Shown here one piece after another: positions 844-27,693 of a stretch of 34,701 nucleotides of DNA; position 1 is the first letter of the stretch, and each line of letters opens with the position of its first letter. Below the pieces are notes generated by a model. It ran no database searches. It saw only the letters and a program-made list of their open reading frames with translations, and was not told the DNA's origin. Where the stretch lies: assembly GCA_039908345.1 (NCBI GenBank), contig JAMOBD010000032.1, positions 1 to 34,701 of the forward strand, written 5' to 3'. A program made the position numbers and the translations under genes. The stretch comes from Magnetospirillum sp. WYHS-4 (GTDB lineage: Bacteria; Pseudomonadota; Alphaproteobacteria; Rhodospirillales; GLO-3).

Positions 844-2307
844 TCACCGTTTGCCGGGACTCCGCCTCGAACGCAAGGCGTCGAGGAGTTGATCCGAGGA
901 AAGAGCCCGCGTGGATGCTGGGACTTCGGGCGAGGGCCCCGCCGGCGGCGCAAGAGCTCCCGCGGAGGCCGCTTGTTGTTCCTCCCGCAACATCGCCAGG
1001 AGAGGGGCCTCGGGGATGGGAGGCAGAGGATCGACCGACGTGTCCGGCCATCCCCCCTCCGCCCCACGCATTGCCCCCATGAGCGGGTCATGCCCCGGCG
1101 AGGCGGGCGAAAAGGATGGGGACGCCGAAGCCGCGGGAGCGGAAGGCGGCCGGCCCGGCATCGCCAACGGAGGCGGCGGCGCCGTCGTGTCCGCCCCTCG
1201 CAGCCGAGCCAGGAGTTGGTCCTGAGATTGTGGAATGGTGGGCTGCGGCGGCGGCGAGGGGGGAGCCGGTATCGGTGACGGCGTTGGCGGGGTGGCCGGC
1301 TTGGGTGGAGGCGGTTCGGCGGGGGCCGGCTTGGGTGGAGGCGGTTCGGCGGGGGCCGGCACGGGCGGAGGCGGTTCGGGAGCAGCAGCCGCCGACGGAG
1401 GCGCCTCGGGGACGTTCGGCTTCGGGACAGGCTTTGCGGGTGCCGACGCGGGAGAATCCGGCGGTCGCCCGGCGGCGGGCGTTACGGGGGAAACCGAAGA
1501 CTCATCCGGCGGCACGGATGGAGCGGGAGCCGGCCTGACGGGCCCGCCCGGAGCGTCCAAATTTCCTGTCTCCCTTCCCTTGGTCGCGGCGGCATCGCGA
1601 TCCGCCTTCGTTTTCGCCACGAATTCGGCCAGTTTCTGAATGGAAAGCTTCGATTGCCCCTGTGGCGGAACGGAAGAAGCGGGACTGGCCGCAGGAGGTG
1701 CCGGAAGCGACCCATCGGCTTCTTCACGATCCGCAGGTGCCGGGGAAACGGGCGCGACATCGACGGCGGGTCCTGCCGGAGACTCCTCGGCCGCCTCGAT
1801 GTCCTCGTCTTCCGGCGGCGCCCCGGGTGAGGATGGAGAGGCATTCCCGGAACGTCTCCGGCTATTTACCGGCATGAGGGTCTGGCGGGAGGAGTACAGT
1901 CGGTGGCTGACATCCGGCCTTCGCGGAGCGCCATCGGGACTGCCGCAAAGACGCCGAAGCACGCGGAGCAGATCCTGGGATCTGCCGTGGCTTCCGATCA
2001 TCTCGTCGACCCCGGCTTCCTTGGCGGTCTCCATGAATTCGATGCCGATATCGGCCTGATCCGCGATCAATACGACGATTCCGGAAAATCCGTTCCGGCG
2101 CGCCTGCTTCACGAACTCCATGCCGTTGGCCGGCGGCAAGAAGGCATTGCAGATCACGATGTCGATGGGAATCTTGGAAAGCTTATCGAGGGCGTCGGAC
2201 GACGAACGGCTTTGAACGACGGACGACACCTTTGCCGCCCGCAGGAACAGAAGTAGGGAGGGGTCGGGAGACGCGTAGAGAATCCGTTTTTCGGTTAGGT
2301 CGTACAA
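844..2307 (-). CDS. Pseudo-receiver protein with long proline-rich C-terminal region
   Basis: The protein has 487 residues. Residues 8-125 have the fold pattern of a receiver, but the catalytic positions are lost: the acidic pair reads 'SPDP', the phospho-acceptor position is Asn in 'VICNAFLPPANG', and the Lys region reads 'MIGSHGRS'. This domain cannot be phosphorylated in the usual way. From about residue 150 to the end the chain is Pro/Ala-rich and low in complexity, with decapeptide repeats of the type PAPAEPPPPK and short conserved-looking islands ('QLLARLRGAD', 'DQLLDALRSRRS'). The only start before the upstream in-frame stop is TTG at 2307, with AGGA 9-12 bases ahead. It lies 39 bases after the pentapeptide-repeat gene and is probably cotranscribed with it. 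I infer a scaffold or protein-interaction role; the function is unknown. Confidence 0.8.
   Translation of the reverse strand: MYDLTEKRILYASPDPSLLLFLRAAKVSSVVQSRSSSDALDKLSKIPIDIVICNAFLPPANGMEFVKQARRNGFSGIVVLIADQADIGIEFMETAKEAGVDEMIGSHGRSQDLLRVLRRLCGSPDGAPRRPDVSHRLYSSRQTLMPVNSRRRSGNASPSSPGAPPEDEDIEAAEESPAGPAVDVAPVSPAPADREEADGSLPAPPAASPASSVPPQGQSKLSIQKLAEFVAKTKADRDAAATKGRETGNLDAPGGPVRPAPAPSVPPDESSVSPVTPAAGRPPDSPASAPAKPVPKPNVPEAPPSAAAAPEPPPPVPAPAEPPPPKPAPAEPPPPKPATPPTPSPIPAPPSPPPQPTIPQSQDQLLARLRGADTTAPPPPLAMPGRPPSAPAASASPSFSPASPGHDPLMGAMRGAEGGWPDTSVDPLPPIPEAPLLAMLREEQQAASAGALAPPAGPSPEVPASTRALSSDQLLDALRSRRSPGKR
1294..1383. repeat. 30-bp tandem repeat inside the proline-rich coding region
   Basis: Two exact 30-base units (1294-1323 and 1324-1353) are followed by a third imperfect unit (1354-1383). 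The unit length is a multiple of three, so each copy adds one decapeptide of the PAPAEPPPPK type on the minus strand. Copy number could change by slippage without breaking the frame. Confidence 0.85.
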
Positions 2308-2346: not shown

Positions 2347-3615
2347 CTACACGCCGGGAGCCTGACCCGCATCAAGCGATCTTGTGGGAAGGACCTGATA
2401 GCAGACGGCATCAACCTCGGTTCCCTTGTCATCGCCCATGAGCTTCCAGGCACGCTGCACCTTGACGAACTCGAACGGAGCCCCCTCCGCCAATAGACGG
2501 GAATGAAGTTCCTCGAGAACCAGGACTTCTCCCCGCTGCCCGATCGGATCGAGTCGCGCGTTCGGCGCGATCGAGTTGAGGATCAATTCCACATTATCGG
2601 TATCCATGTCGCGACGCACGGTAATTTCACCCCAGTTGACGCCCGCATAGGAATGAACGCCGAGCTTGCCCAAGACCGTCAGATAATTGGTCGCGTGAAT
2701 CAATGCCGCCACGGAATTTTGAAACGTCATGACGATCACGTCGCCCGCCAACGCCTCGGCGGCGGCGCCCTCGACATGCCGGACATTGGTATCGTACCGC
2801 CGAAGCAGCCCGAGGAATTCCTGCTTTTCCTTCGGCGTGCGCCTGGCGAAGCCCACCACATGAAACAACAGGATGGCCGCATCGCGCGTCTCGTAAGTGA
2901 AGTAGGCCCGGTCGTCTTCCGGAACCTCGTCGACGGGATATTCGTCGACGGAAGGGGGCTCTTCCGGAACGGGAACCTCCGGCGCCGGGGGCCGCACCGG
3001 CTCCAGTGCTTTGGGTGGTGGCGGGGCCCGTCGATCCTGGATCGACGGGCGGTCGAGAACGGTGGCCGTAAGATTGGCGCCGTCGAACTTGGCACCGCTG
3101 ATCTCGGCGCCCGCCAGGTTCGCCCCCTGAAGGTCCGCCTCGCGCAGATCGGCCCCCGCGAGAATGGAATTCGCCAGATTGGCGCCCGACAGCAACGCTC
3201 CGGACAGCCTCGCGCCCGACAGGACGGCACCGTACATGTCGGCCCCCGTAAGATTCACCTTGCCGACCAGCGCGGCGCCGGACAGGTTGGCCCGCCGCAA
3301 AATCGTACCGGACAGGTTGGCCCTGAGCAGATAGGCTCCCGCCATGTTGGCGCCCTCCATCTTGGCGCCGCCCAGGTTGACTTCCTCGAGATTGGCTCCC
3401 GACAGATTGGCGAGCGTGCAATCCGCCCCGCTCAAATCGGCCCTCTTGAGATTGGCGAGCGGCATGAGGACACCGCCGAGATTCATCCCCGCGAGCTTGG
3501 CTTCCTCAAGATCGGCTTGCGCGAGATCGGGCACGACATCAGGCTCGCGCTCGCGCCAAGCATTCCACTTCTCCGCTCCCTGGGCGATGTTCTGTAGATG
3601 TCGGATATTCGGCAT
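2347..3615 (-). CDS. Pentapeptide-repeat protein fused to a degenerate class III nucleotide-cyclase-like domain
   Basis: The protein has 422 residues. About residues 30-190 are a near-continuous run of pentapeptide repeats (A-[D/N/K]-L-x-x, for example 'ADLREADLQGANLAGAEISG'), which should fold as a right-handed quadrilateral beta-helix. A Pro-rich linker follows. About residues 235-410 resemble a class III adenylyl/guanylyl cyclase homology domain: 'LLFHVVGFAR' at the first metal-site strand, 'AGDVIVMTF' at the second, 'GVNWGEITV', and 'APNARLDPIGQRGEVLV'. The first metal-binding Asp is His ('FHVVGF') while the second Asp is kept, so catalysis is doubtful. ATG at 3615 is chosen over the GTG one codon upstream because GGGGAG lies 4 bases before it. 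It is followed by the pseudo-receiver gene. The protein is probably cytosolic; the function is unknown. Confidence 0.8.
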   Translation of the reverse strand: MPNIRHLQNIAQGAEKWNAWREREPDVVPDLAQADLEEAKLAGMNLGGVLMPLANLKRADLSGADCTLANLSGANLEEVNLGGAKMEGANMAGAYLLRANLSGTILRRANLSGAALVGKVNLTGADMYGAVLSGARLSGALLSGANLANSILAGADLREADLQGANLAGAEISGAKFDGANLTATVLDRPSIQDRRAPPPPKALEPVRPPAPEVPVPEEPPSVDEYPVDEVPEDDRAYFTYETRDAAILLFHVVGFARRTPKEKQEFLGLLRRYDTNVRHVEGAAAEALAGDVIVMTFQNSVAALIHATNYLTVLGKLGVHSYAGVNWGEITVRRDMDTDNVELILNSIAPNARLDPIGQRGEVLVLEELHSRLLAEGAPFEFVKVQRAWKLMGDDKGTEVDAVCYQVLPTRSLDAGQAPGV

Positions 3616-3618
3616 CAC

Positions 3619-3919: not shown

Positions 3920-4441
3920 TCATTTCGCGCCGTACATTGGCGAAGCCGCGGAAAAGCCGATCGTATCGTCGCATCCCCTTTCGAAGAACAGGTCGGCAAG
4001 TTCGTCCATGACCCGGCGGTTGGCTTCCGCGATCTCATACTCCTTCCCGACCATGAACGGGACATAGCGATGGTCCTCGATCTTGATGTGGTTGAACAGC
4101 CAGGATTTCATTAGGTCCAGAACGTCGCTGGCGTTCACCGCGGATGGGGCCGCGGCATGCAGGGCGAGTAGCTCGCCCAGGCGGGCCTTGAAGCGTTCGT
4201 GCACGCGCACATGGGCGTCCAGTCCGGGATACCCCACCGCGGCCATCAGATACTCTTCGCGGAGGAAATGGTACTTGGCATATTCCGTCAAGGCGGTCAG
4301 CACGCTGGCGACGCTCTCGACTCCGTGGTCGCCTTCGATGGCGTCGTCGAGAAGATTGATCAGCGCGACAAGGGTCTGGTGGTCAAGATCGATCTCGACC
4401 ACGCCGACGCTCAGATCATCGGTAAAAAGCAATTCTCCCAC
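3920..4441 (-). CDS. Bacteriohemerythrin
   Basis: A single-domain hemerythrin of 173 residues that should bind O2 at a non-haem di-iron site in the cytoplasm. All seven ligands are visible: H21, H58 and E62 in HxxxE, H77 and H81 in HxxxH, and H118 and D123 in HxxxxD. GTG at 4441 is chosen as start because GGAAGGAG lies 7 bases upstream; an open frame extends to a GTG at 4477 but that would add residues not typical of the family. The C-terminus has a roughly 40-residue extension beyond the four-helix bundle. It lies downstream of feoB on the same strand, separated by a strong hairpin, and a paralogue lies at 7761-8273. The likely role is oxygen storage or sensing linked to iron; the specific job is inference. 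Confidence 0.92.
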   Translation of the reverse strand: MGELLFTDDLSVGVVEIDLDHQTLVALINLLDDAIEGDHGVESVASVLTALTEYAKYHFLREEYLMAAVGYPGLDAHVRVHERFKARLGELLALHAAAPSAVNASDVLDLMKSWLFNHIKIEDHRYVPFMVGKEYEIAEANRRVMDELADLFFERGCDDTIGFSAASPMYGAK

Positions 4442-4537
4442 CGCACCGCTCCTTCCCCACCGGAGACTTTCCCCCACATTGTCACGTAATGATGAAAGGG
4501 ACCGCCGTCAACAGGTGGCGCAACGGAATCTGCCCCA

Positions 4538-4648: not shown

Positions 4649-6760
4649 TCAGAATATCAGGAGACCGACATGGCGGACGATCAGAGCCAATATCCATGCG
4701 AAAACGAACGAGTAGCCGACAGAGAAGGCCGCCCATCCCCAACGCCCCGACTCGCGGCCGATGACGGCGATGGTGGCGAGGCATGGGGCGTAGAGCAGGG
4801 TAAAGATCATGAAGGCCAGGGCCGTCGACGTCGACATCGCCGCCGCCAAGGCTTTGGTCAGGTCCACCGATTCCTTTTCCTGGGCGAAAATCACCGCGTA
4901 GGTGGCCACGACCACCTCCTTGGCCACGAACCCCGTGAGAGCGGCCGCCGTTTCCCGCCACGAGAACCCCAGCGGCTCGAGCACCGGTGCCACGAGGTGG
5001 GAAACAACCCCAAGGTAGCTCTTTTCCAGCTTTTCCTGAGCCTGAACGGCCTTCAGCTTGTTGAGCGCCAGGGTATTTTCCTCGCTGGCCGGCTGCGCTT
5101 CGACCGCGGCGATGGCGGTCTCGAAGTCCTGGGAATAGGCGATGTCGCGCGGGAATTCCTGCAGGAACCAGATCACGATCGACCCCACCAGGATGACACC
5201 CGTCACCTTGGCGATGAAACCCTGGGCGCTGTCCCACATGTGGTGCAGGACCGAATGCAGGGTCGGCAGACGGTAGGGCGGGAGTTCCATGACATAGGCC
5301 TCGCCACCGCTGCCGGGAATGATCCGGTTCAGCAGCACCGCCGACAGCATCGCCGCGGCGATGGAAAGCATGTAGATGCCGAAGACCACGGTTCCCGCCG
5401 CCTCGGCGAAGAAGGCGCCGGCGAACAGGATGAACACCGGCAGGCGGGCCGAGCAATTCATGAACGGCGCGATCAGCATGGCGATCAATCGTGCCCGCGG
5501 ATTGGTGATGACGCGCGTCGCCATCACGGCGGGAACGTTACACCCGAATCCGGCGACCATGGGGATCAAGGTGGTGCCGTGCAGGCCCACCCCATGCATC
5601 AGGCGATCCATGAGGAAGCTGGCGCGGGCGATGTAGCCGGTACCGCTCAGCACGGCCATGAAGAAGAACAGGATGACGATGTTCGGCAGGAAAACGATGG
5701 TCCCGCCCACGCCGGCGATGACGCCATTGACGATCAGGTCGCGGGCCATTCCTTCGGGCATCGCCGATTCGACTCCCTGGGAGATGGCCTCGACCCCCGC
5801 CTTGATCCAATCGGTCGGCACGGAACCTAAGGAAAACGTCGTCTCGAACATCACCCACAAGATGGCGAGCAGGAGAGGAAGGCCCAGCGTGCGGTGGAGG
5901 AAAATTCCGTCAAGGGCCTTGGTCATCTTGAAGCTGGTGGTAGGCTCGTTGTCCTGGTGACGCACCTCGGAAAGCAAGCCATGGGCGAAGGCGAACCGCG
6001 CCGACGCGAACATCATGGCCGGGTCCTCGTCGTGTTCGTGAACGAGGGCCTCCCGCTCCCGCAGGATTTCGCCAATCAGCGTCTCGTGATTGCTTTCGCG
6101 ACGGACGATCTCGTCGTCTCCTTCCAGCAGCTTGATCGCAAGCCAGCGCGACTGGGCCGGAGACAATTCGTGAGGGTGCAGCTTCTCGAGGTGCTCCTGG
6201 ACACGGACGATCGCCTGCTCCAGGTGCTTGTCGTAGTGGAGGCGGATGGGAAGACGGGCCGACGACGTGGCGTAATCGACAATGGCGTCGAGCAGTTCCG
6301 AGACGCCCTCGTCCTTAATGGCGCAGGTCTCCAAGACCGGGGAATCGAGCGCCGATGCCAGCGTCTGTGTATCGATGCGAATACCCGCCCGGCGGGCTTC
6401 ATCCTTCATGTTCAAAACGGTGATGCGCGGGATGCCGGACTCGATCAGCTGCGTGGTCAGAAACAGGCCGCGATCCAACTGCCCGGCGTCCAGCACATTG
6501 ACCACGATGTCGGGCGGTTCCGTATTCAGATATTCGCATCCCGGCCGATCGTCGGCCGCCCCGGAAGACAGGGAATAGATGCCCGGAACGTCGACGATGT
6601 TGATCTCGACCCCTCGATGGGACACCTTGCGGGCGACCTTGGAAGCCGTCACACGGGGATAATTGGCGACGCTTTCCCTGGCTCCGGTCAAGCAGTTCAG
6701 CAAACTGGTCACGCCAGCGTTCGGGTTGCCCACCAGGGCAACCGTGACGGTCGAGCTCAT
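4649..6760 (-). CDS. feoB: Ferrous iron transporter FeoB with altered P-loop
   Basis: The protein has 703 residues and is the inner-membrane Fe(II) permease of the Feo system. The N-terminal G domain shows G1 'GNPNAGVTS' (11-19), G2 around T38 in 'NYPRVT', G3 'DVPG' (57-60) and G4 'NMKD' (117-120). The usual G1 lysine is valine (V17, codon GTG), which is odd because this lysine contacts the GTP phosphates. The membrane part has the two Gate motifs, with 'GFGCNVPAVMATR' and 'PFMNCSARLPV', so the permease looks intact. It starts 35 bases after feoA and is surely cotranscribed with it; no feoC is visible. It is probably Fur-controlled through the feoA promoter. GTPase function may be weakened or rely on other contacts. 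Confidence 0.95.
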   Translation of the reverse strand: MSSTVTVALVGNPNAGVTSLLNCLTGARESVANYPRVTASKVARKVSHRGVEINIVDVPGIYSLSSGAADDRPGCEYLNTEPPDIVVNVLDAGQLDRGLFLTTQLIESGIPRITVLNMKDEARRAGIRIDTQTLASALDSPVLETCAIKDEGVSELLDAIVDYATSSARLPIRLHYDKHLEQAIVRVQEHLEKLHPHELSPAQSRWLAIKLLEGDDEIVRRESNHETLIGEILREREALVHEHDEDPAMMFASARFAFAHGLLSEVRHQDNEPTTSFKMTKALDGIFLHRTLGLPLLLAILWVMFETTFSLGSVPTDWIKAGVEAISQGVESAMPEGMARDLIVNGVIAGVGGTIVFLPNIVILFFFMAVLSGTGYIARASFLMDRLMHGVGLHGTTLIPMVAGFGCNVPAVMATRVITNPRARLIAMLIAPFMNCSARLPVFILFAGAFFAEAAGTVVFGIYMLSIAAAMLSAVLLNRIIPGSGGEAYVMELPPYRLPTLHSVLHHMWDSAQGFIAKVTGVILVGSIVIWFLQEFPRDIAYSQDFETAIAAVEAQPASEENTLALNKLKAVQAQEKLEKSYLGVVSHLVAPVLEPLGFSWRETAAALTGFVAKEVVVATYAVIFAQEKESVDLTKALAAAMSTSTALAFMIFTLLYAPCLATIAVIGRESGRWGWAAFSVGYSFVFAWILALIVRHVGLLIF

Positions 6761-6795: not shown

Positions 6796-7074
6796 CTATT
6801 TCAGGCGAACCAGGATCGCCCGCGCTTCCTTGCCGCGAAGACCGAGCGGATAGCCCTTGACGATATAGGTGCGCGGGTCGCCTAGCGGCGCCGTGCGATC
6901 GATCCTGACGTCGGCATCGCGCACCATGCCCAGCGACATCATGCGCCGCTTGAACACCGGGTCCGGGCTCTCGATGGAGACGACGACCCCCGCCTGTTCC
7001 GGCCCCAAATCCGCGAGAGTGAGGAGATTGTCCACGCCGCCACTTCCCTTCGAAACATCCGCCCGCATGACCAT
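6796..7074 (-). CDS. feoA: Ferrous iron transport protein FeoA
   Basis: The protein has 92 residues. This small SH3-like cytosolic protein works with FeoB in Fe(II) uptake. The C-terminal half contains the family pattern 'RRMMSLGMVRDADVRI' and ends 'LRGKEARAILVRLK'. The frame is open up to 7146, but that region contains the promoter and Fur-like box. The ATG at 7074 has an AGGGAG ribosome-binding site about 6 bases upstream and is taken as the true start; an ATG two codons later is an alternative. It is the first gene of the feoAB operon. Confidence 0.9.
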   Translation of the reverse strand: MVMRADVSKGSGGVDNLLTLADLGPEQAGVVVSIESPDPVFKRRMMSLGMVRDADVRIDRTAPLGDPRTYIVKGYPLGLRGKEARAILVRLK

Positions 7075-7125
7075 ACAGCTCCCTTTGTCTCTGACCAGAC
7101 CCGTCGGCGACTGCCGTCCTGGAAT

Positions 7126-7144
7126 GATAGCGACAATAATTATC
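7126..7144. promoter_or_regulatory. Fur-like iron box upstream of feoA
   Basis: The 19-base minus-strand site GATAATTATTGTCGCTATC matches the classical Fur box in 14 of 19 positions. It covers the -10 element of the feoA promoter, the position expected for iron-dependent repression. Other alphaproteobacterial iron regulators with AT-rich sites cannot be excluded. Confidence 0.65.
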
Positions 7145-7160
7145 ATCTTGCCGCTGTCAA
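7133..7160 (-). promoter_or_regulatory. feoAB promoter
   Basis: A perfect -35 TTGACA (7160-7155) is followed by a 16-base spacer and -10 TATTGT (7138-7133). The predicted start is near 7126, about 50 bases before the feoA ATG. The overlap with the Fur-like box supports iron control. Confidence 0.6.
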
Positions 7161-7191: not shown

Positions 7192-7695
7192 TCATGGGTG
7201 GCTCTTGCGACGCTCTCTTCCACGATAGGCCGCATCATGGCGGCGGCGGCGGTCGGGACCGAAGAAGTCCTTCGCCCGGACGAAGGGACGCGGTCGCAGA
7301 ATCACGGCGGCCAGACGGCTGTAGAGGCCCTTTGCCGTCACGGGCTTGACCAGAAACTCGTTGATGCCGGCGTTAAGAGCCGCCAGCACCCGATGTTGTT
7401 CCGAATGCCCCGTCACCATGACGATGGGAGTATACGGGTTCACGCTGTCCGGATCGGATCGGATATTGTGCGCGAAGGTGATTCCGTCCATCTCCGGCAT
7501 GTTCCAGTTGGTGATGATGATGTCCGGAGAAAAGCCGCCGCGGAGCACCTCAAGAGCCTGAACCCCATTTTCGGCCTCGCGTATGTTGCGGCAATGAAAC
7601 GCAGACAAGACCGTCTTTGTGATACTCCGCATGAACTGGTTATCGTCGACTACCAGCATCCTAAGGAAAGACAGGTCAAGGCTAGTCGAATTCAT
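7192..7695 (-). CDS. Stand-alone receiver with Asp-to-Asn phospho-acceptor
   Basis: A 167-residue CheY-like protein. The acidic pair D17/D18, the Thr in 'MVTGHSE' and the Lys in 'FLVKP' are kept, but the phospho-acceptor is N63 in 'IITNWNMPEMDG' (codon AAC). The remaining pocket is therefore complete apart from the residue that accepts phosphate. The tail 'FFGPDRRRRHD' matches that of the intact receiver at 127-795. The gene follows the hemerythrin at 7761-8273 on the same strand by 65 bases and may be cotranscribed with it. It could act as a constitutive or phosphorylation-independent binding partner; this is inference. Confidence 0.9.
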   Translation of the reverse strand: MNSTSLDLSFLRMLVVDDNQFMRSITKTVLSAFHCRNIREAENGVQALEVLRGGFSPDIIITNWNMPEMDGITFAHNIRSDPDSVNPYTPIVMVTGHSEQHRVLAALNAGINEFLVKPVTAKGLYSRLAAVILRPRPFVRAKDFFGPDRRRRHDAAYRGRERRKSHP

Positions 7696-7760: not shown

Positions 7761-8273
7761 TCACGATCTTCCCCCCATGAACGGATCGTTTTCCATGTCA
7801 TCGAAATCAATATCGTCCAGGGATACGAAATGGACGGATTCGGCTGCCGCCTCGGCCTCGGGCGTGTTGGCCACGTAGGGGGCGAAGGCCTTGTCCTCGG
7901 ACATGATGTGCTCGACAAGCCAGTCCTTGAGAAAGACGTAAAGATCGTCGATGTCCACCGAGGCCGGGTCCGCCATGAAACGCGACCGGTACTGCTCCAC
8001 GGATTCCTTGAGACTCTCGTGGATACGATGATGGGCCGCCAGCCCTGGGTAGCCCCCCGCCGCCTGAACGAGTTCCTCGCGGGTGAAATGGTAGTCGGTG
8101 TAATGGCCGAGAACATTGAGAACGGTGCCGATCACGGAAATCGGCTCAGGGCCATCCTTGGCCTTGACGATCTGGTTGAGAAGGTCGATCAGAACCTTGT
8201 GATCCGCGTCCACCGCCGGTATGCCGACGCTCAAATCCTCGGTCCAGTGGACCAGTTGAAGTTCTGTGCCCAT
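7761..8273 (-). CDS. Bacteriohemerythrin (second copy)
   Basis: A single-domain hemerythrin of 170 residues. The ligands are H25, H62 and E66, H81 and H85, and H122 and D127, giving a complete di-iron O2-binding site. ATG at 8273 is used because AGGAA precedes it closely; a TTG four codons upstream is an alternative. The C-terminus carries an acidic tail ('DDIDFDDMENDPF') that the first copy at 3920-4441 lacks, so the two copies are not simple duplicates. It is followed by the Asn-receiver gene on the same strand. Oxygen binding in the cytoplasm is well founded on the family; whether it stores, delivers or senses O2 is open. Confidence 0.93.
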   Translation of the reverse strand: MGTELQLVHWTEDLSVGIPAVDADHKVLIDLLNQIVKAKDGPEPISVIGTVLNVLGHYTDYHFTREELVQAAGGYPGLAAHHRIHESLKESVEQYRSRFMADPASVDIDDLYVFLKDWLVEHIMSEDKAFAPYVANTPEAEAAAESVHFVSLDDIDFDDMENDPFMGGRS

Positions 8274-8387
8274 CGTTCCTGTCAACCGCCTTCCAATGAT
8301 GCGCAGGCCGATGATCCGACCCCCCGGACCGTCGCGACGGGTCCCAGACCCGAACGCAGCCCCCTGGGCATCCCATGCCTTTACACA

Positions 8388-10691
8388 TCAAGGGCGGCCC
8401 CCACGTGCCATTGCCCAAGCAGAGGAACCATAGCCGATTCCCTCGGGATTGGAAAGAATCGCGCTTTTGTCCGGCAGTGACGACGCGCTCGCGGGCCGCA
8501 ACATCCGCAATCCATTGAGCACCACAAGCAGCGACACCCCCGAATCGGCAACGATGGCCCCCCAAAGGGTGGCCACATCGACCATGGCGAGCAAGGTGAA
8601 CAATGCCTTGACCCCCAGGGCGAAGCCGATGTTCCAGCGAATCAGGCCCATCATGCGCCGCGAATGCTGGATCAGCCATGCCAAGCGGGTCAGATCGTCG
8701 GACATCAGCGCCAAGTCCGATGTCTCGATGGCCGCGTCGGTGCCCGCCACGCCCATGGCGATGCCAAGGGACGAACGCGCCATGGCGGGCGCATCGTTGA
8801 CGCCATCCCCGACCATGGCCACGTGGCCATGTCGCCGTACCAACTCGTCGATGGCGGCACTCTTGTCCTGGGGTAACAATCCCGCCCTGACTTCATCGAA
8901 CCCCAGGGCGGCGCCAACCCGGTCGGCGGCAGCCGCGTGGTCTCCGGTCAGAAGGATCATGGTGGATACCCCCGCTTGGCGCAGGGAGGCCAGCGCAACG
9001 CCCGCCTCAGGACGGATAGGGTCCTCCAGGGCCATCAGGCCCAGCACACGATCCCGATCGCCGACGGCCACCACGGTCCATCCTTCTTCCGCCAAACCGT
9101 CGGCCGCTTCGCGCACGGCGGACGTCTCGGCGCCCCGTTCCGCCATGAACCGGGGAGAGCCTAGCCAGACGGCGGATACGCCGATGCTTCCTTGAACCCC
9201 CTTGCCTGGAAAGGCGCGAACATCATCGGCCGGGGGCGGCCGGATACCCTGGGCGGCCGCACATTCGACGATGGCGCGGGCCAACGGATGGGTACTGCGG
9301 GATTCCAGCGCCGCGGCGACATGCAGGACCTCCGCTTCGCTCCCCCCGTCCAGCGCGAGCACCCGTTTGACACCGGGACGCCCCAGGGTAACGGTCCCCG
9401 TCTTGTCGAAGGCGATGGCGGCGATGCGCGACGGAGCCTCCAGGTGCTCTCCTCCCTTGACCAGGACCCCTGCCCGCGCGGCCGAGGCCATGGCGGCCAC
9501 GACCGTCACCGGAGTAGAGATCACCAGTGCGCAGGGACAGGAAATCACCAACAACACCAGCGCCCGGTACACCCAATCGGGCCATGCTCCTCCAAACGCC
9601 AACGGCGGAATCAAGGCCACCGCGACCGCGCAGGCCAGCACGAAGGGCGTATACACGGCGGCAAAGCGGTCGACCCAACGTTCCACCTTGGACCGGCGGC
9701 TCTGGGCTTCATCGACCAACCGGGCCACACCGGCCAGGGTGGTCTCTTGGGCAAGCTTGGAGTTTTCCACTTCCAACACGCCGTCCGCATTGATCGTCCC
9801 CGCGAAGACATCGGCGCCGGGACCTTTGAATATCGGCATGCTTTCCCCTGTGATGGGGGCCTGGTCGACCATGCTTTCTCCGGCCACGACCCGCCCGTCC
9901 AGGGGAATGCGCTCGCCGGGATGAACCAGGAAGATGGCACCCACGGCGACATCGGCCGGAGAGACGATGGTTTCGCGACCATCCGGCCCCTTCACCCTGG
10001 CGACAGGCGGGGCCAAATCCATCAGCGCGGCGATGGCACGCCGGGCGCGCCCGGCACTCCAGCCTTCCAGTGCCAACGACAGGGCGAACAAGGCCGAGAC
10101 CATGGCCGCCTCCAGCCAGTCTCCCAGGGCCACGGCACCGAACACCGCCATGGTCATCAGCAGATTCATGTCGGGACGGAAGGATCGGGCCGCACGAATC
10201 GCCCTCGGCAGCACCATCCATAGCCCCACCGCCATCGCCAGCGCCTCCGCGGTCCGGGCCGGGACCACCGCGGAGTCGAGCCAAGTCTCCAGTCCCCATC
10301 CGACCATCGCGGCCACGCCGCTGATGGCCGCCATCCATGCCTGAAGCCGGCGACGGGAAGCTTCGTCACGCCCCCTATCGACGGCCGAAGTCGCCTGCCA
10401 TGGATCGGCCTCCATGCCGGTGCGGGCAACGGCGGCAATCACCTTGTCCTGGGAAATCCCATCGGCCTTGATGGACATCCTGCCGTTCAACAGGTCGAAG
10501 GATAAATTGTCCTCCCCCCCGACCAACGGACCGACCGCCGCTTTCAGAACCCTCACCTCCTCCAGGCAACACATGCCGGTGACGCGAAAGGATTGGCCTT
10601 CGATCGCCGCGGATGCCGGAACCTCCGGTGAAACGGGGGCCGGAGCGCCACAGCACCCGGATCCACTGCAGCGGGTCGCGGTCGACGTCAT
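8388..10691 (-). CDS. Heavy-metal P1B-type ATPase, Zn/Cd/Pb exporter type
   Basis: The protein has 767 residues. The N-terminus has a Cys cluster ('CSGSGCCG', 8-14) and an HMA-like domain whose metal motif is CCLEE (41-45), the CCxxE form known from plant Zn/Cd pumps rather than the common CxxC. Then come TGES (281-284), the CPC transmembrane motif (385-387), the phosphorylated D429 in 'DKTGT', the HP motif in 'STHPLAR', and 'GDGVNDAPA'. The last membrane part contains 'VADSGVSLLVVLNGLRML' with the Asp typical of ZntA-like pumps. ATG at 10691 has GGAGGAAC upstream. The divergent MerR-family gene and the dyad promoter make it a metal-inducible inner-membrane exporter. Zn, Cd or Pb is expected; the exact metal is not provable here. 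Confidence 0.95.
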   Translation of the reverse strand: MTSTATRCSGSGCCGAPAPVSPEVPASAAIEGQSFRVTGMCCLEEVRVLKAAVGPLVGGEDNLSFDLLNGRMSIKADGISQDKVIAAVARTGMEADPWQATSAVDRGRDEASRRRLQAWMAAISGVAAMVGWGLETWLDSAVVPARTAEALAMAVGLWMVLPRAIRAARSFRPDMNLLMTMAVFGAVALGDWLEAAMVSALFALSLALEGWSAGRARRAIAALMDLAPPVARVKGPDGRETIVSPADVAVGAIFLVHPGERIPLDGRVVAGESMVDQAPITGESMPIFKGPGADVFAGTINADGVLEVENSKLAQETTLAGVARLVDEAQSRRSKVERWVDRFAAVYTPFVLACAVAVALIPPLAFGGAWPDWVYRALVLLVISCPCALVISTPVTVVAAMASAARAGVLVKGGEHLEAPSRIAAIAFDKTGTVTLGRPGVKRVLALDGGSEAEVLHVAAALESRSTHPLARAIVECAAAQGIRPPPADDVRAFPGKGVQGSIGVSAVWLGSPRFMAERGAETSAVREAADGLAEEGWTVVAVGDRDRVLGLMALEDPIRPEAGVALASLRQAGVSTMILLTGDHAAAADRVGAALGFDEVRAGLLPQDKSAAIDELVRRHGHVAMVGDGVNDAPAMARSSLGIAMGVAGTDAAIETSDLALMSDDLTRLAWLIQHSRRMMGLIRWNIGFALGVKALFTLLAMVDVATLWGAIVADSGVSLLVVLNGLRMLRPASASSLPDKSAILSNPEGIGYGSSAWAMARGGRP

Positions 10692-10731
10692 GACAAGTTC
10701 CTCCGGCTGGACAGAAATTCCTCTTGCGCCC

Positions 10732-10762
10732 ATGATGGACCCTGGAGCGGCTACAGGGTCAA
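10732..10762 (-). promoter_or_regulatory. MerR-type promoter and operator of the metal ATPase
   Basis: On the minus strand -35 TTGACC (10762-10757) and -10 CATCAT (10737-10732) are separated by 19 bases, the overlong spacer typical of MerR-activated promoters. A 21-base dyad at 10739-10759 (arms ACCCTGTAG and CTCCAGGGT, one mismatch, 3-base centre) fills the spacer. It ends 9 bases before the merR-family start codon, so it may also control that gene. Confidence 0.85.
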
Positions 10763-11831: not shown

Positions 11832-12515
11832 CTAGTCTCCGACCTTCAGCCGGTATCCCACTCCCGGATCGGTGAGGATCAGGGTCGGCTGGGCGGGGTC
11901 GGGTTCCAGCTTTTGACGAAGCTGGTTGATATAGACCCGCAAGTAGGCGGTGTCCTCGACATGGGCCGGCCCCCAGACCTCCCTGAGGATCAGCCTGTGG
12001 GTGAGCACACGGTCGGGACGGCCGGCCAGGAAGACCAACAGGTCCCATTCCTTTTTGGAAAGCCGGATTTCCTCCCCGCCCCGCAGCACCAGCCGCCGCC
12101 CGATGTCGATCCGGATGGGGCCGAGATCCAGCATGTCGGCCGCTCCGCGTTCCGCGTGCGGCCGGAGCGAGGCGCGGACACGAGCCATCAATTCGGCGAT
12201 TCCGAAGGGCTTGACCACGTAGTCGTTGGCCCCCCGGTCCAGGGCCTCCACCTTGTCGGACTCGCCGGCCCGCACCGACAACACGATGATCGGCAAGGCC
12301 GAGAATTCGCGCACCGCCGTGATCACCTCCTGACCGTCCAGGTCGGGCAGGCCCAAGTCGAGGATCACCAAGTCCGGTGCCTGGTCGCGGGCCCCCCGGA
12401 TGCCGGCGGCGCCGGTCTCCGCCTCCAGCACGTCGTAGCCGTTGGCGGCCAGGGAAATGCGCAGGAACTTCCGGATCTGTGGTTCGTCATCGATGACCAG
12501 AATGCGGTTTCCCAT
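11832..12515 (-). CDS. kdpE: KdpE response regulator
   Basis: A 227-residue OmpR/PhoB-type regulator. The receiver has phospho-acceptor D53 in 'VILDLGLPDLDG', the switch Ser in 'VLSVRAGESDKVEALD' (KdpE-typical), and Lys in 'VVKPFG'. The C-terminal winged helix contains 'LSKKEWDLLVFLAGRPDRV' and 'YINQLRQKLEPDP'. It starts three bases after the kdpD stop, so it is translationally coupled. It activates the kdp operon when KdpD signals K+ limitation or osmotic stress. As last gene of the operon it should autoregulate. Confidence 0.96.
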   Translation of the reverse strand: MGNRILVIDDEPQIRKFLRISLAANGYDVLEAETGAAGIRGARDQAPDLVILDLGLPDLDGQEVITAVREFSALPIIVLSVRAGESDKVEALDRGANDYVVKPFGIAELMARVRASLRPHAERGAADMLDLGPIRIDIGRRLVLRGGEEIRLSKKEWDLLVFLAGRPDRVLTHRLILREVWGPAHVEDTAYLRVYINQLRQKLEPDPAQPTLILTDPGVGYRLKVGD

Positions 12516-12518
12516 GCC

Positions 12519-15209
12519 TCAAGCCTCATCCTCACCGGCATTCAGGTCAAGTTCTGGGGGCAGCGGCAGGTGGACGACGATGCAGGTGCCGGACCCGTGC
12601 AGGCCGGACTCCACGTGGATGGTGCCCCCATGGGCCTCGACGATCCCCCGGCAAATGGCTAGGCCAAGGCCCGTTCCCGCCTGGCTATCGCTCTGGGCCA
12701 CTCGGTAGAACATGTCGAAGACTTTCTCCCGGTCCTCGGGAGCGATGCCCGGCCCCTCGTCGCAAATCTCGACCGCCACATGGGCGGCCGTCCGGCGGGC
12801 CCAGACTTTCACCAGCGTGCCGGCAGGCGCGTACTTGCAGGCATTGTCCAGCAGGTTGAAGAAGGCCTGCTCCATCAGCACGGCGTCCAGGCTGAGAAGC
12901 GGCATGTCCGGGGCGATGTCGATGCGGAGTTCGTGGGAACGAGCCACCCGCTTGGCGCGCCGCACCGCCGCCGCGACGATGTCGCGCAGGTCCGCCCAGT
13001 CGGCCCTGGGCTTCAGGGCCCCTGCTTCCAGGCGGGTCATGTCGAGCAGGTTCTGGACGAAACGGTTCAACCTCTCCGCCTCGTCCTCGATGCTCTGGGC
13101 CAGGTCGTGGCGGGCGTCCGGGGACAGTTGTTCGCCGTAGGAGATCAGGGTCGAGGCCGCGCCCTTGATCGAGACCAGGGGCGTACGCAGATCGTGGGAG
13201 AGGGACGACAACAGGGCCGAGCGCAGGCGTTCGCGCTCGGTAGCCACCCGAGCCGCCTCGACGTCGGCCACCAGGTTGGTGCGTTCGATGGCCATCGCCG
13301 CCTGGTCGGCCAGGGTTTCCAGGAGGCGAGTTTGCTCGGGTGTCGGCGTTTCGGCCCCCTCCGGCATCCGCACCCCGAGCACCCCGACGGGCCCGCTCAC
13401 CGACTTCATGGGCAGGAACAGCCACTCGGCGGTAGGCAAGGTGGCCGAACCCCGGCCCGCCGGCTGCCCATGGGTCCAGGCCCAGCCGGCCGCGCCCACC
13501 GACTTCTCGTCGATCTGATCCTCGGGCGGATAGCCGGCAGCGATGGCCAGGCCATGCGCGCCCGGCAGCAGGACGAGGGACCGGCCGCGAAGGGTGGAAG
13601 CCACATGATGAACCACGGCCCAGAGGACGTCGTCCAGCGTGGCGGCGGCGCCGATGCGACGGCCGAAATCGTAGAGGTTGGTGGTTCGCTTCGCATTCTC
13701 GCGCGCCGCTTCCATCTGGGCGCGCAGGCGGCTGGCCATGTTGCTGACCGCTACGGCCGCGATCAGGAAGAAGACCACCGTCAGGATGTTCTGGGTATCG
13801 GTGATGGCGAAGGAATAGCGGGGTTCGGTGAAGAAAAAATTGAAGGCAAGGAAGCTCGCCACCGACACGAGCACCGCCGGTCGCAATCCCACCGTCATCG
13901 CCACCACCAGCACGGCCATCAGGTAGGCGACCGAGATGTTGGCGACCGGCAGCCAGAGGTCGATCAGAAATCCGGCCCCCGTCGCGGCGACCGTTCCCGC
14001 CAGGGCCACGAGGTAGCCCAGTCCTTCGCGAATCGACGGCTTGACGCGGGGACGGACCGGGGCGGACCGGGGACGGCTCTCCTCCTCGCCACCCACCACG
14101 AGGACATTGAACTCGCCGGCCCGTTCGATCAGGCGGTCGGTCACCGATTTCCCCAGCCGCCAGCGCCGCTTCTTGGTGCGCCCAACCACGATCTGCGTCG
14201 CGTTGCGCTCCCTGGCGTAATCCAGGATTGCAGCCGGCACATCGTCCCCCTGGAGAACAGCGGTCTCGCCGCCCAACTGGGAGGTGAGGCGCATGGCTTC
14301 GGCTACCCGGTCCTTGTCCTCGTCGTTAAGGGAGTGATCGCGCGAGGTCTCGACCGTGACGGCGACCCAGGCGGCGGAACGCCGTTCTGCCGACCGCTTG
14401 GCAACCCGCACCAGGCGCGTGGCTTCCACCCGCTCGTCGATGCAGACCAGAATGCGTTCGCGGGCGGGCCAGGGTCCCGCGATGGCATGGGCCCGCATGT
14501 AGTCGACCATCTGCTTGTCGACCCGCTCGGCGGCATGGCGGAGCGCCATCTCGCGAAGGGCGGTCAGGTTGCCGGGCGAGAAGAAGTGGTGGACGGCGCG
14601 GCGGGCCTGTTCGGGGACGTAGACCTTGCCTTCGTGCAGGCGCTTGATGAGGTCTTCGGGCGGCAGGTCGATCAGTTCGATCTCGTCGGCGACGGTAAGC
14701 ACCCCGTCGGGCAAGGTCTCGCGCACCTTGACCCCGGAAATCTGCTCGACCACGTCGTTCAGGCTTTCCAGGTGCTGGATGTTGAGGGTGGTATAGACGT
14801 CGATGCCGGCCGCCAGCAATTCCTCCACGTCCTGCCAGCGCTTGACGTGGCGCGAGCCGGGCACGTTGGTATGGGCAAGTTCATCCACCAGGGCGATGGT
14901 GGGCCGGCGCGTCAGCAGAGCGTCCAGGTCCATTTCCCGGAAGGTCCGGCCCCGGTAGTCGACGACGCGGGGCGGCAACAGCTCCAGGCCTTCCAACAGG
15001 GCCTCGGTCTCGCGCCGGCCGTGGGTCTCGATGACCCCGGCGACGACGTCGCCGCCTTCGCGCCGACGCTCGTGCGCCGTTTCCAGCATGGCGAAGGTCT
15101 TGCCGACGCCGGGGGCGGCGCCCAGGAAGATCTTCAAATGCCCGCGCCCCTCGCGCCGGGCTTCGGCGAGAAGGGCATCGGGGGACGGACGGGTTTCGTC
15201 GTCGGTCAT
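12519..15209 (-). CDS. kdpD: KdpD sensor histidine kinase
   Basis: The protein has 896 residues, the usual length. In order: the N-terminal KdpD domain with Walker A 'GAAPGVGKT' (30-38), a universal-stress-protein-like domain (about 250-370), four clustered transmembrane helices (about 395-490), a GAF-like domain, a dimerisation/phosphoacceptor helix with 'SSLSHDLRTPLVSIKG', and a C-terminal ATPase with 'NLLDNACKYAP' and '[18 protein letters not shown]'. It senses K+ limitation and phosphorylates KdpE. It begins 10 bases after the kdpC stop. Confidence 0.97.
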   Translation of the reverse strand: MTDDETRPSPDALLAEARREGRGHLKIFLGAAPGVGKTFAMLETAHERRREGGDVVAGVIETHGRRETEALLEGLELLPPRVVDYRGRTFREMDLDALLTRRPTIALVDELAHTNVPGSRHVKRWQDVEELLAAGIDVYTTLNIQHLESLNDVVEQISGVKVRETLPDGVLTVADEIELIDLPPEDLIKRLHEGKVYVPEQARRAVHHFFSPGNLTALREMALRHAAERVDKQMVDYMRAHAIAGPWPARERILVCIDERVEATRLVRVAKRSAERRSAAWVAVTVETSRDHSLNDEDKDRVAEAMRLTSQLGGETAVLQGDDVPAAILDYARERNATQIVVGRTKKRRWRLGKSVTDRLIERAGEFNVLVVGGEEESRPRSAPVRPRVKPSIREGLGYLVALAGTVAATGAGFLIDLWLPVANISVAYLMAVLVVAMTVGLRPAVLVSVASFLAFNFFFTEPRYSFAITDTQNILTVVFFLIAAVAVSNMASRLRAQMEAARENAKRTTNLYDFGRRIGAAATLDDVLWAVVHHVASTLRGRSLVLLPGAHGLAIAAGYPPEDQIDEKSVGAAGWAWTHGQPAGRGSATLPTAEWLFLPMKSVSGPVGVLGVRMPEGAETPTPEQTRLLETLADQAAMAIERTNLVADVEAARVATERERLRSALLSSLSHDLRTPLVSIKGAASTLISYGEQLSPDARHDLAQSIEDEAERLNRFVQNLLDMTRLEAGALKPRADWADLRDIVAAAVRRAKRVARSHELRIDIAPDMPLLSLDAVLMEQAFFNLLDNACKYAPAGTLVKVWARRTAAHVAVEICDEGPGIAPEDREKVFDMFYRVAQSDSQAGTGLGLAICRGIVEAHGGTIHVESGLHGSGTCIVVHLPLPPELDLNAGEDEA

Positions 15210-15219
15210 GCCGGACAGT

Positions 15220-15798
15220 TCACCTCATGGGCCAGCGTTCGTCCAGGGCCAGGTTGAGGCGCAGCACGTTGATGCGCGCCTCGCCCAGGACGCCCAACTC
15301 CCGGCCCTCGGTATGCCGGATGACGAAATCGCGGAGTTCTTGGACCGGAATATGGCGGTAGGCCGCCACTCTTTTCACCTGGTAGGCGGCGGCGGCCGGC
15401 GAGATGTGGGGGTCGAGGCCGCTGGCCGAGGCGGTCGCCAAGTCGGCCGGGACCGGCCCAGTCTCTTCAGGATGGGTGGCCTTCAGTTTCTCGGCCTGGG
15501 AGGCGACGCCTTCCGCCAGGGCCTTGGCGGAAGGCGCGAGGTTGCTGCCCCCCGAGTTGGCGGCATCGTAGCCCTTTCCCGCCGCCGACGGGCGCCCCTG
15601 GAAGTAGCCGGGCCCGCTGAAGGCCTGGCCGATCAGGGCGGAGCCGACCACCTTGCCATCTTTCTCGATCAGACTCCCGCCGGCCTGCCAGGGGAAGGCC
15701 ATCTGGGCGACGCCGGTGACCAGCAGGGGATAGATGATGCCGGTGATGGCGGTCATGACGGCCAGCAGCACCAGGGCGGGACGAAGTTCCTTCAGCAT
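15220..15798 (-). CDS. kdpC: K+-transporting ATPase KdpC subunit
   Basis: The protein has 192 residues. There is one N-terminal transmembrane helix ('LRPALVLLAVMTAITGIIYP') and a periplasmic domain with family signatures 'GSALIGQAFSGPGYFQGRPS', 'ASGLDPHISPAAA' and 'LNLALD'. ATG at 15798 has GGAGAA about 6 bases upstream; the frame is open nine codons further but those overlap the end of kdpB. KdpC is the accessory subunit that stabilises the KdpAB pump. Confidence 0.96.
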   Translation of the reverse strand: MLKELRPALVLLAVMTAITGIIYPLLVTGVAQMAFPWQAGGSLIEKDGKVVGSALIGQAFSGPGYFQGRPSAAGKGYDAANSGGSNLAPSAKALAEGVASQAEKLKATHPEETGPVPADLATASASGLDPHISPAAAAYQVKRVAAYRHIPVQELRDFVIRHTEGRELGVLGEARINVLRLNLALDERWPMR

Positions 15799-15811
15799 GG
15801 CTTTTCTCCGA

Positions 15812-17899
15812 TCAGGCAAGGCCAAGGGCGGCGATGACGAGGTCGATCAGCTTGATGCCCGCAAACGGCACGACCAGGCCGCCTAAGCCGTAGACGAACA
15901 AGTTGCGCTTCAGAAGCGCTTCGGCCCCCGCCGGCCTGTAGCGGACGCCCTTCAGGGCCAGCGGGATCAAGGCGATGATGATCAGCGCGTTGAAGACGAT
16001 GGCCGAAAGGATCGCCGACTGCGGGCTGGCCAGCCCCATGACGTTGAGGGCCTGAAGCTGCGGGTAGGAGGCCAGGAACAGGGCCGGGATGATGGCGAAG
16101 TACTTGGCCACGTCGTTGGCGATGGAGAAGGTGGTCAGCGAGCCGCGGCTCATCAGCAACTGCTTGCCGATCATCACGATCTCGATCAGCTTGGTGGGAT
16201 CGCTTTCCAGGTCGACCATGTTGCCGGCCTCGCGGGCCGCCTGGGTGCCGGTGTTCATGGCCACCCCCACATCGGCCTGGGCGAGGGCTGGGGCGTCGTT
16301 GGAACCGTCGCCGCACATGGCGACCAGGCGTCCGCCCTTCTGGTAGTCGCGGATCAGTTCCAGCTTCCTTTCCGGCGTCGCCTCGGCGAGGAAGTCGTCG
16401 ACGCCGGCCTCGGCGGCGATGGCGGCGGCGGTCAACGGATTGTCGCCGGTTATCATCACCGTCTTGATGCCCATGGCGCGTAGCGTCGCAAAGCGTTCCC
16501 GGATGCCCGGCTTGACGATGTCCTTGAGGTGGACCACGCCCAAGGCCCGGTCATCGCGAGCCACCACTAGGGGCGTGCCGCCCGAACGGGCCACTTGTTC
16601 CACCAGAAGGGTCAACTGGCGCGGCAGGCCCCCCGGTGTGCGGCCGGCCCTGTCGGCCACCCAGGCGACGATGGCATCCACCGCGCCCTTGCGGATTTCG
16701 CTGACCGAGGTCATCACTCCCCCCCAGGAACCGCCGTTGAGGTTGATACCGCTCATGCGGGTCTGGGCGGTGAAGGGCACGAAGCTCATGCCCTTGCGAT
16801 CCGGATCGGCGAAGCTGAAGCGATGTCGGGCCAGGGCGACGATGGACTTGCCTTCCGGCGTCTCGTCGGCCAGGGAGGAAAGGAAGGCGGCTTCGGCCAA
16901 GTCTCGCTCGTTGACGTCCGACAGGGGCAGGAATTCCGCCGCTTGGCGGGCGCCCAGGGTGATGGTACCGGTCTTGTCCAGCAACAGCACGTCGATGTCG
17001 CCCGCCGCCTCGACGGCGCGGCCAGACTTGGCGATCACGTTGAACTTGACCAGCCGGTCCATGCCGGCGATGCCGATGGCCGACAGCAGGCCGCCGATGG
17101 TGGTGGGGATCAAGGTAACGAACAGGGCCACCAGGAAGACCACCGGAATGTTGGTCCCGGACCAGGAGGCGAAGACCGGCAGGGTGGCGACCACGATCAG
17201 GAAGATCATGGTCATGCCGACCAGCAGGATGGTGAGCGCGATCTCGTTGGGCGTCTTCTGGCGCTTGGCGCCTTCGACCAGGGCGATCATGCGGTCCAGG
17301 AAGGTCTGGCCCGGATCGACCGTGATTCGCACCACAATGCGGTCGGAAACCACCCGGGTGCCGCCGGTGACCGCCGAGCGATCGCCACCCGATTCCCGGA
17401 TAACTGGTGCGCTCTCGCCGGTAATCGCGCTTTCGTCCACGGTGGCGATGCCGGCTACCACGTCGCCGTCGCCGGGAATGACGTCTCCCGCCTCGCAAAC
17501 CACGAGATCGCCGGCCCGCAAGGTCTCGGCGGCCACCGCCACGAAGGAGGCCGCTTCCGGGCTGGCGACCTTCTTGGCCACCGCCTCGGTCTTGGTCCGG
17601 CGGAGCGAGGCCGCCTGGGCCTTGCCGCGCCCTTCGGCCACCGCCTCGGCGAAGTTGGCGAACAGCACGGTGAACCACAGCCAGGCGGTGATCTGGACCT
17701 CGATGGCCAGATGGGCCCCGGCGTCGCCGATGTCACGGATGGACAGGACGATCGCGATCAGGGCCACCAGGGCGGTGGCGAACATCACCGGATTGCGGAT
17801 CAGTTGGCGCGGGTCGAGTTTTTTCACGGCGTCCCTGGCCGCACTCGCCAGGATGGCGGGCTCGAACAGGGAAATCTCTTGCGGACGATGGATGCTCAT
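15812..17899 (-). CDS. kdpB: K+-transporting P-type ATPase KdpB subunit
   Basis: The protein has 695 residues and is the ATP-hydrolysing subunit of the KdpFABC K+ pump. Visible motifs are the TGES actuator loop, the phosphorylated Asp in '[12 protein letters not shown]', 'FTAQTRMSG' in the nucleotide domain, and '[19 protein letters not shown]'. The C-terminal membrane region has the Kdp-specific '[18 protein letters not shown]'. ATG at 17899 is chosen with AGGAAGG 7 bases upstream; a start 12 codons earlier would overlap kdpA. The frame is complete. Confidence 0.97.
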
Positions 17900-17912
17900 G
17901 GATGCGCCTTCC

Positions 17913-27559: not shown

Positions 27560-27693
27560 TCACAAAATTCGTGCTGCCGCCAGGGGTATTGCGGAAATCC
27601 TTGAATTTCGGCGATTTTACCAAACGTAAAGACTCGCTAACCATAATAATCCTGGATTCGCCCACGCCGAATCCGCCCGTCGAAGGGGGAAAA

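Follow-up and report, generated by a model that had tools for sequence, protein, structure and literature searches.

A conserved pentapeptide-repeat pseudo-cyclase family linked to magnetosome genes

The window analysed here is a 34,701-nucleotide stretch of DNA from Magnetospirillum sp. WYHS-4 (contig JAMOBD010000032.1). Near its start, the minus strand carries an open reading frame at 2347..3618, read from 3618 to 2347, that opens with GTG and encodes 423 amino acids followed by a stop. Frame 1 of the plus strand contains stops over the same coordinates, and a 364-residue plus-strand ORF that overlaps the gene (2503..3597) appears to be no more than its antisense shadow. A preliminary description of this DNA had placed a feature at 2347-3615; the ORF lies there, encoded on the minus strand, and the feature is real. 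The protein has three parts: pentapeptide repeats at the N terminus, a class III cyclase homology domain at the C terminus, and between them a short linker that is acidic and Pro-rich.

The gene lies among signalling and iron-transport genes, also on the minus strand. About 40 bp downstream is a receiver-like gene (844..2307) with a long Pro-rich tail and Asn at the phospho-acceptor position, in line with the pseudo-receiver proposed earlier, although its Pfam match (E 4.1e-5, 24.1 bits) falls below the 30.2 cut-off. The next gene upstream encodes a bacteriohemerythrin (3920..4477; Pfam, NCBIfam), followed by the ferrous iron transporter FeoB (4649..6760; Pfam), FeoA (6796..7146; Pfam), a single-domain CheY-like receiver beside feoA that also has Asn at the phospho-acceptor position (7192..7695; Pfam, alignment), and a second bacteriohemerythrin (7761..8285; Pfam, NCBIfam). 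Asn thus occupies this position in two of the three window receivers compared (7192-7695 and 844-2307). Further along, the window holds a P-type ATPase gene, probably of the heavy-metal type, on the same strand just upstream of the hemerythrin and feoAB genes (8388-10733; Pfam), a potassium uptake locus with KdpA, KdpC, a KdpB-like ATPase, a KdpD sensor kinase, and a response regulator (11832-19598), and an ATP-synthase-type ATPase with a T3SS-type C-terminal domain (27571-29058), which we take to be flagellar FliI.

The N-terminal pentapeptide repeats named in the preliminary description were borne out. Residues 31-190 (3049..3528, minus strand) match PF00805 with an E-value of 2.8e-37 and form tandem A(D/N)LXX repeats, as expected of a pentapeptide-repeat beta-helix; read in its best register, the stretch has L, F, M, or I at 19 of 32 centre positions, compared to maxima from 2000 shuffles that averaged 10.6 and never exceeded 17. 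A 30-residue N-terminal cap precedes the repeats and contains a family motif, N[VI]xHL...WNAWR, that was also seen in relatives. Tandem repeats are shared with HetL-like and Qnr/MfpA-like pentapeptide proteins, and the best NCBIfam repeat matches were HetL and Alr5209. Unlike those proteins, the window protein scores far below the NCBIfam cut-offs for HetL and Qnr, and its repeats are fused to the acidic linker and a pseudo-cyclase domain. The linker spans about residues 191-235 (2914..3048, minus strand), with a net charge of -7 over the 42 residues measured, and was negatively charged in all 28 sequences that could be measured via the N-terminal motif, near-copies counted.

The C-terminal domain of about 188 residues (residues 236-423; 2350..2913, minus strand) was less readily recognised. 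A Pfam scan of the window protein gave no convincing match in this domain, a DUF234 match being dropped as weak, and single-sequence Pfam scans of 23 family members detected a cyclase in none of them, with no match to PF00211 at E <= 1. Neither Pfam nor NCBIfam has a model dedicated to this domain. Because Pfam was silent on single members, linking the domain to cyclases required profiles. The window protein matched the cyclase part of the NCBIfam LipJ model weakly (E 3.1e-4), and 19 of the 23 members matched the same model with a best E-value of 5.4e-8 and 21.5 bits for the window, its curated cut-off being 800 bits. We then used an alignment of 23 rows, comprising the window, two full-length relatives (L010 and L011), and 20 loci from a single-domain search, near-copies included; 21 of its columns are invariant. 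Searched against the PDB, its profile found the cyclase domain of LipJ/Rv1900c (E 1.9e-6) and a Silicibacter cyclase (E 3e-4). The same profile also matched ribosomal eL30, at E-values from 0.014, which we discounted as weak and as noise. Profile-profile comparison of the family with eight real cyclases from the window's own genome gave an E-value of 6.8e-7 and a probability of 91.9%.

Structure prediction pointed to the same fold. AlphaFold2 run on one sequence produced an unusable model (pLDDT 44.2); a three-sequence alignment (window, L010, and L011) gave a model of moderate confidence (pLDDT 65.6, pTM 0.64). With this second model, the best 50 Foldseek matches listed were all class III cyclases or constructs that include one, with a best E-value of 1e-9 and moderate TM-scores of 0.45-0.66 when normalised by model length. 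The 50 rows listed by VIA were likewise all class III cyclases or constructs with one, at Z-scores up to 15.3. The preliminary description had seen the strand pattern of nucleotide cyclases in residues 235-410 and had proposed checking it by structure prediction and a profile search against class III cyclases; both were run and both returned matches. The C-terminal domain is therefore a class III nucleotidyl cyclase homologue with the catalytic-domain fold. Its nearest solved structures are LipJ/Rv1900c (1ybt) and CyaB (3r5g), with which the family has in common the fold, detectable sequence kinship, and an invariant Arg.

The active site is where the family departs from these enzymes. In class III cyclases, two aspartates (Asp1 and Asp2) serve as metal ligands, a Lys selects the base, and an Asn and an Arg act on the transition state. 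We mapped these positions by profile-profile comparison with the eight real cyclases of the window's genome and by alignment. Those eight have Asp1, Lys, Asp2, and Arg throughout, with Asn (five) or Gln (three) at the Asn position. The family, in contrast, lacks Asp1, the base-selecting Lys, and the transition-state Asn in all 23 aligned rows. His253 occupies the Asp1 position in the window (2860..2862, minus strand), as the preliminary description had noticed, and Tyr is found there in 15 of the 23 rows. That description had also read the second Asp as kept, which holds for the window itself (Asp293; 2740..2742, minus strand) but for only three of the 23 rows including it; the remaining 20 have Asn, Ser, or Glu, with Asn in 15. 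The pair of metal aspartates expected of an active cyclase is thus missing across the family. The transition-state Arg, in contrast, is present in 23/23 (Arg355 in the window; 2554..2556, minus strand). Domain position 25 is basic (Lys or Arg) in all 23, and Arg154, Trp156, Cys171, and Tyr172 are invariant. The invariant Arg and basic position 25 are compatible with a putative anion-binding pocket.

Judged by these residues, the pseudo-cyclase domain appears to be dead and not half-dead, and non-catalysis is its likeliest state. The suggestion that the domain makes no cAMP thus agrees with a family-wide loss of catalytic residues. As a whole, the preliminary description was right about the cyclase fold, the His in place of Asp1, the neighbouring pseudo-receiver, and probable non-catalysis, but 'half-dead' was too mild for a domain whose Asp1, Lys, and Asn are gone in 23/23 and Asp2 in 20/23. 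We considered a role as heterodimer partner of a real cyclase and judged it unlikely, because Lys and Asn are lost in addition to the metal residues.

The preliminary description had also proposed looking for the same fusion in other genomes. When the single domain was searched against 317 genomes of the order, 32 had a relative at E <= 0.001, the one in G041 being weak (2.1e-4). The 23-row profile matched at E <= 1e-59 in 31 genomes, at 34 loci, and these 31 carry the three-part protein; matches in 19 further genomes were 9.3e-9 or weaker and were taken for ordinary cyclases. In 385 genomes sampled across the class, some of them from the order, there were two matches at E <= 1e-10, both inside the order and none outside it. 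When architecture was checked in 35 sequences (duplicates included, one copy from G130 left out), 29 had many pentapeptide repeats together with the domain, and L059, cut by a contig end, had part of the repeats. The remaining five (L011/L049, L047, L056, and L058), interrupted by frame changes, an N, or the end of a contig, did not count either way. The fusion of pentapeptide repeats to a pseudo-cyclase is thus the rule in the family. A single paralogue, L079, carries the repeats without the N-terminal cap motif. Two family copies have broken reading frames, in G120 (L071:7410-9007, with the break in the linker) and in G245 (L058), representing either pseudogenes or assembly errors; G120 is possibly M. 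gryphiswaldense MSR-1.

NCBIfam Mam models matched neither the window protein nor any of the 23 domains, and our literature search found the family described nowhere, although homologues may be listed among hypothetical proteins specific to magnetotactic bacteria. The window protein is a member of an unannotated, unnamed, conserved family of magnetotactic Rhodospirillales-type bacteria and a real variant of known parts.

As a marker for magnetotactic genomes, we used magnetochrome (PF18509), a haem motif of magnetosome proteins. It was present in 44 of the 317 genomes at E <= 0.001, 38 of them over the cut-off, and in none of 14 control genomes. Magnetochrome was found in 30 of the 31 family genomes, so that by this marker, and in the order searched, the family is restricted to magnetotactic genomes with a single exception, G011. 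Conversely, the family was present in 30 of the 44 magnetochrome genomes, across seven family-level groups (f1, f21, f22, f23, f24, f28, and f31). In four chosen genera, with genomes assigned by handle order (handles between two of one genus being taken as that genus), the counts of genomes with both and with neither were 4 and 7 (g63), 11 and 6 (g65), 2 and 1 (g101), and 3 and 1 (g115), without exceptions. A Fisher test on [30,1],[8,278] gave p = 1.5e-33, a value that ignores phylogeny and in which the 8 was obtained by subtraction from 38. The preliminary description had missed this main point: a conserved fusion family is almost confined, in the order searched, to magnetochrome genomes, and its genes are mostly linked to magnetochrome genes.

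The association does not run in both directions. Eight magnetochrome genomes over the cut-off (by subtraction), or 14 at E <= 0.001, lack the family, which is therefore not required for magnetosomes. Genus g53 is discordant, with magnetochrome but no family gene in G103 and G104 and both in G107, and further discordant genomes occur in other genera (G004, G005, G102, G166, G171, and G248). The exceptional G011 (L054/L076) is the only family genome without magnetochrome and without a MamE match above generic proteases, which may point to loss, to a gap in the assembly, or to a different use of the gene. The nearest relative of the window genome in our set, G001, has neither the family nor magnetochrome. 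In the window genome itself, a MamE-like gene lies on contig C56, apart from the family gene, and scores 692 bits against a cut-off of 800.

Physical linkage was also evident. Among the matches listed, 25 of the 34 family loci share their contig with magnetochrome at a distance of 0.3 to about 25.1 kb, and the other nine, including the window, do not; all seven loci in genomes of one or two contigs lie within 20.2 kb of magnetochrome, again among the matches listed. On the window contig, no mam gene was recognised by Pfam (27 ORFs) or NCBIfam (6 ORFs), and genome searches for magnetochrome and MamE matched other contigs; feoAB is one gene away. A Mam-labelled neighbour of at least 100 bits (phmmer) occurred in 14 of 20 fetched regions, or 11 of 20 without weakly supported MamY and MamF labels, some of these regions being the source of the query itself. 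Among the neighbours scanned with NCBIfam, MamC, MamD, and MamZ scored over their cut-offs, MamX (372/400 bits) and MamE (762/800) fell just under, and MamY was weak (57/600); the MamF label, without an NCBIfam match, is our presumption. Co-distribution and physical linkage thus tie the family to magnetosome-island genes (mam, mms, feoAB1), although, unlike mam genes, the family protein matches no Mam model.

feoA and/or feoB adjoin the family gene in four of the 20 regions (L063, L064, L074, and L077). In L077, the family gene is followed by feoA, feoB, MamC, a magnetochrome protein, and a MamZ-like gene. A FeoAB-specific subfamily was considered and rejected because the FeoAB-linked copies do not form one clade but fall in separate parts of the tree (4 changes, compared to a shuffled mean of 4.7; 125 of 500 shuffles were as low); the window sequence sits on a long branch (1.52) and its placement is unsure.

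Degenerate receivers and hemerythrins recur near the family gene in other genomes. In a non-exhaustive choice of 13 receivers from these neighbourhoods, with L063 and L074 being close relatives, nine lack the phospho-acceptor Asp (five Glu, two Asn, one Pro, and one Gly) and four retain it; degenerate receivers also follow the family gene directly in G160 (two) and in G187 (one). Hemerythrin-like matches were found in 12 of the 20 regions, and Pfam confirmed all six of these that were scanned (L067, L070, L071, L074, L076, and L079). Genes for a VWA protein, a PP2C-like phosphatase, and a protein-kinase-like protein lie near the family gene in L073 (5096-7959), L010, L011/L072, L062 (phosphatase and kinase only), and L075, spanning genomes of three family-level groups.

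We favour the reading, to which we assign a probability of roughly 55%, that the protein acts without catalysis as a scaffold or sensor within the magnetosome gene neighbourhood, with a plausible tie to O2 or iron signalling. Since the family occurs, in the genomes searched, almost only in bacteria with magnetosome genes and its loci mostly lie close to them, it probably contributes to iron handling or oxygen sensing in a non-enzymatic way. This reading draws on the retained fold, the loss of catalytic residues, co-distribution with magnetochrome, linkage, and feoAB adjacency; it is weakened by the lack of a recognised mam gene in the window, by G011, by the magnetochrome genomes without the family, by published deletions in M. 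gryphiswaldense, and by feoAB adjacency being a minority arrangement (4/20). The protein would be a soluble cytoplasmic scaffold whose rod-like repeat domain may dock partners, whose acidic linker may space or tether, and whose pseudo-cyclase domain may dimerise and/or hold an anionic ligand as a switch. In the window, it could link hemerythrins that respond to O2 or iron, together with pseudo-receivers, either to FeoAB import supplying iron for magnetite or to a magneto-aerotactic response. That the locus encodes a magnetosome-specific hub of dead signalling domains, with a pseudo-cyclase scaffold, pseudo-receivers, and hemerythrin O2 sensors gating FeoAB import for magnetite without cAMP or phosphotransfer, strikes us as quite unlikely.

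Other readings use the same evidence differently. The gene could be a passenger of the magnetosome island, kept through linkage and co-transfer, with a function in oxygen or stress signalling at large and none in magnetosomes, which we regard as possible but improbable. In two reports on M. gryphiswaldense, large deletions between the magnetosome operons left wild-type magnetosomes and island regions outside the main operons were largely dispensable, as this reading would expect if those regions include the family's homologue, although one region resisted deletion (PMC3197154, PMC7908775). The frame-broken copies in G120 and G245 and the retention of the gene in G011, which has neither magnetochrome nor a specific MamE match, fit it as well. 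However, if G120 is M. gryphiswaldense MSR-1, the copy is frame-broken in that assembly, so the published deletions may not test an intact protein. Presence of the family in 30 of 44 magnetochrome genomes (E <= 0.001) from seven family-level groups, its absence from the magnetochrome-free genomes of g63, g65, g101, and g115, and 21 invariant columns in 23 rows argue against a passenger, as does a screen in AMB-1 in which certain island genes are reported to be important under particular growth conditions only (PMC8788322).

The idea put forward originally, of a nucleotide sensor whose pocket would bind ATP, GTP, cAMP, or ppGpp and signal by shape without making cAMP, seems unlikely to us. The retained class III fold, the transition-state Arg and basic position 25 in 23/23, and the invariant Arg154 are consistent with it, but with Lys and Asp1 gone in every row and Asp2 in 20 of 23, the usual purine and metal contacts have disappeared, and the invariant residues may be structural. 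An active cyclase using His253 and Asp293 as alternative metal ligands is highly improbable: Asp293 is kept and His could bind metal in the window sequence, but position 253 is Tyr in 15 of the 23 rows and Asp in none, and Lys and Asn are lost throughout.

MtxA (MGR_0208) was also compared; like the family, it is associated with magnetotactic bacteria and lies near signalling genes, a CHASE2-cyclase gene following mtxA. We rejected MtxA on the basis of its differing architecture: it is a 313-residue protein with a signal peptide and Big and TPR folds (PMC4439547).

Collectively, these findings show the pentapeptide-repeat pseudo-cyclase to be real and conserved. A conserved gene that is nearly confined, in the order searched, to magnetochrome genomes, and of which we found no description in the literature searched, is a concrete candidate for how magnetotactic bacteria couple oxygen and iron status to magnetosome formation.
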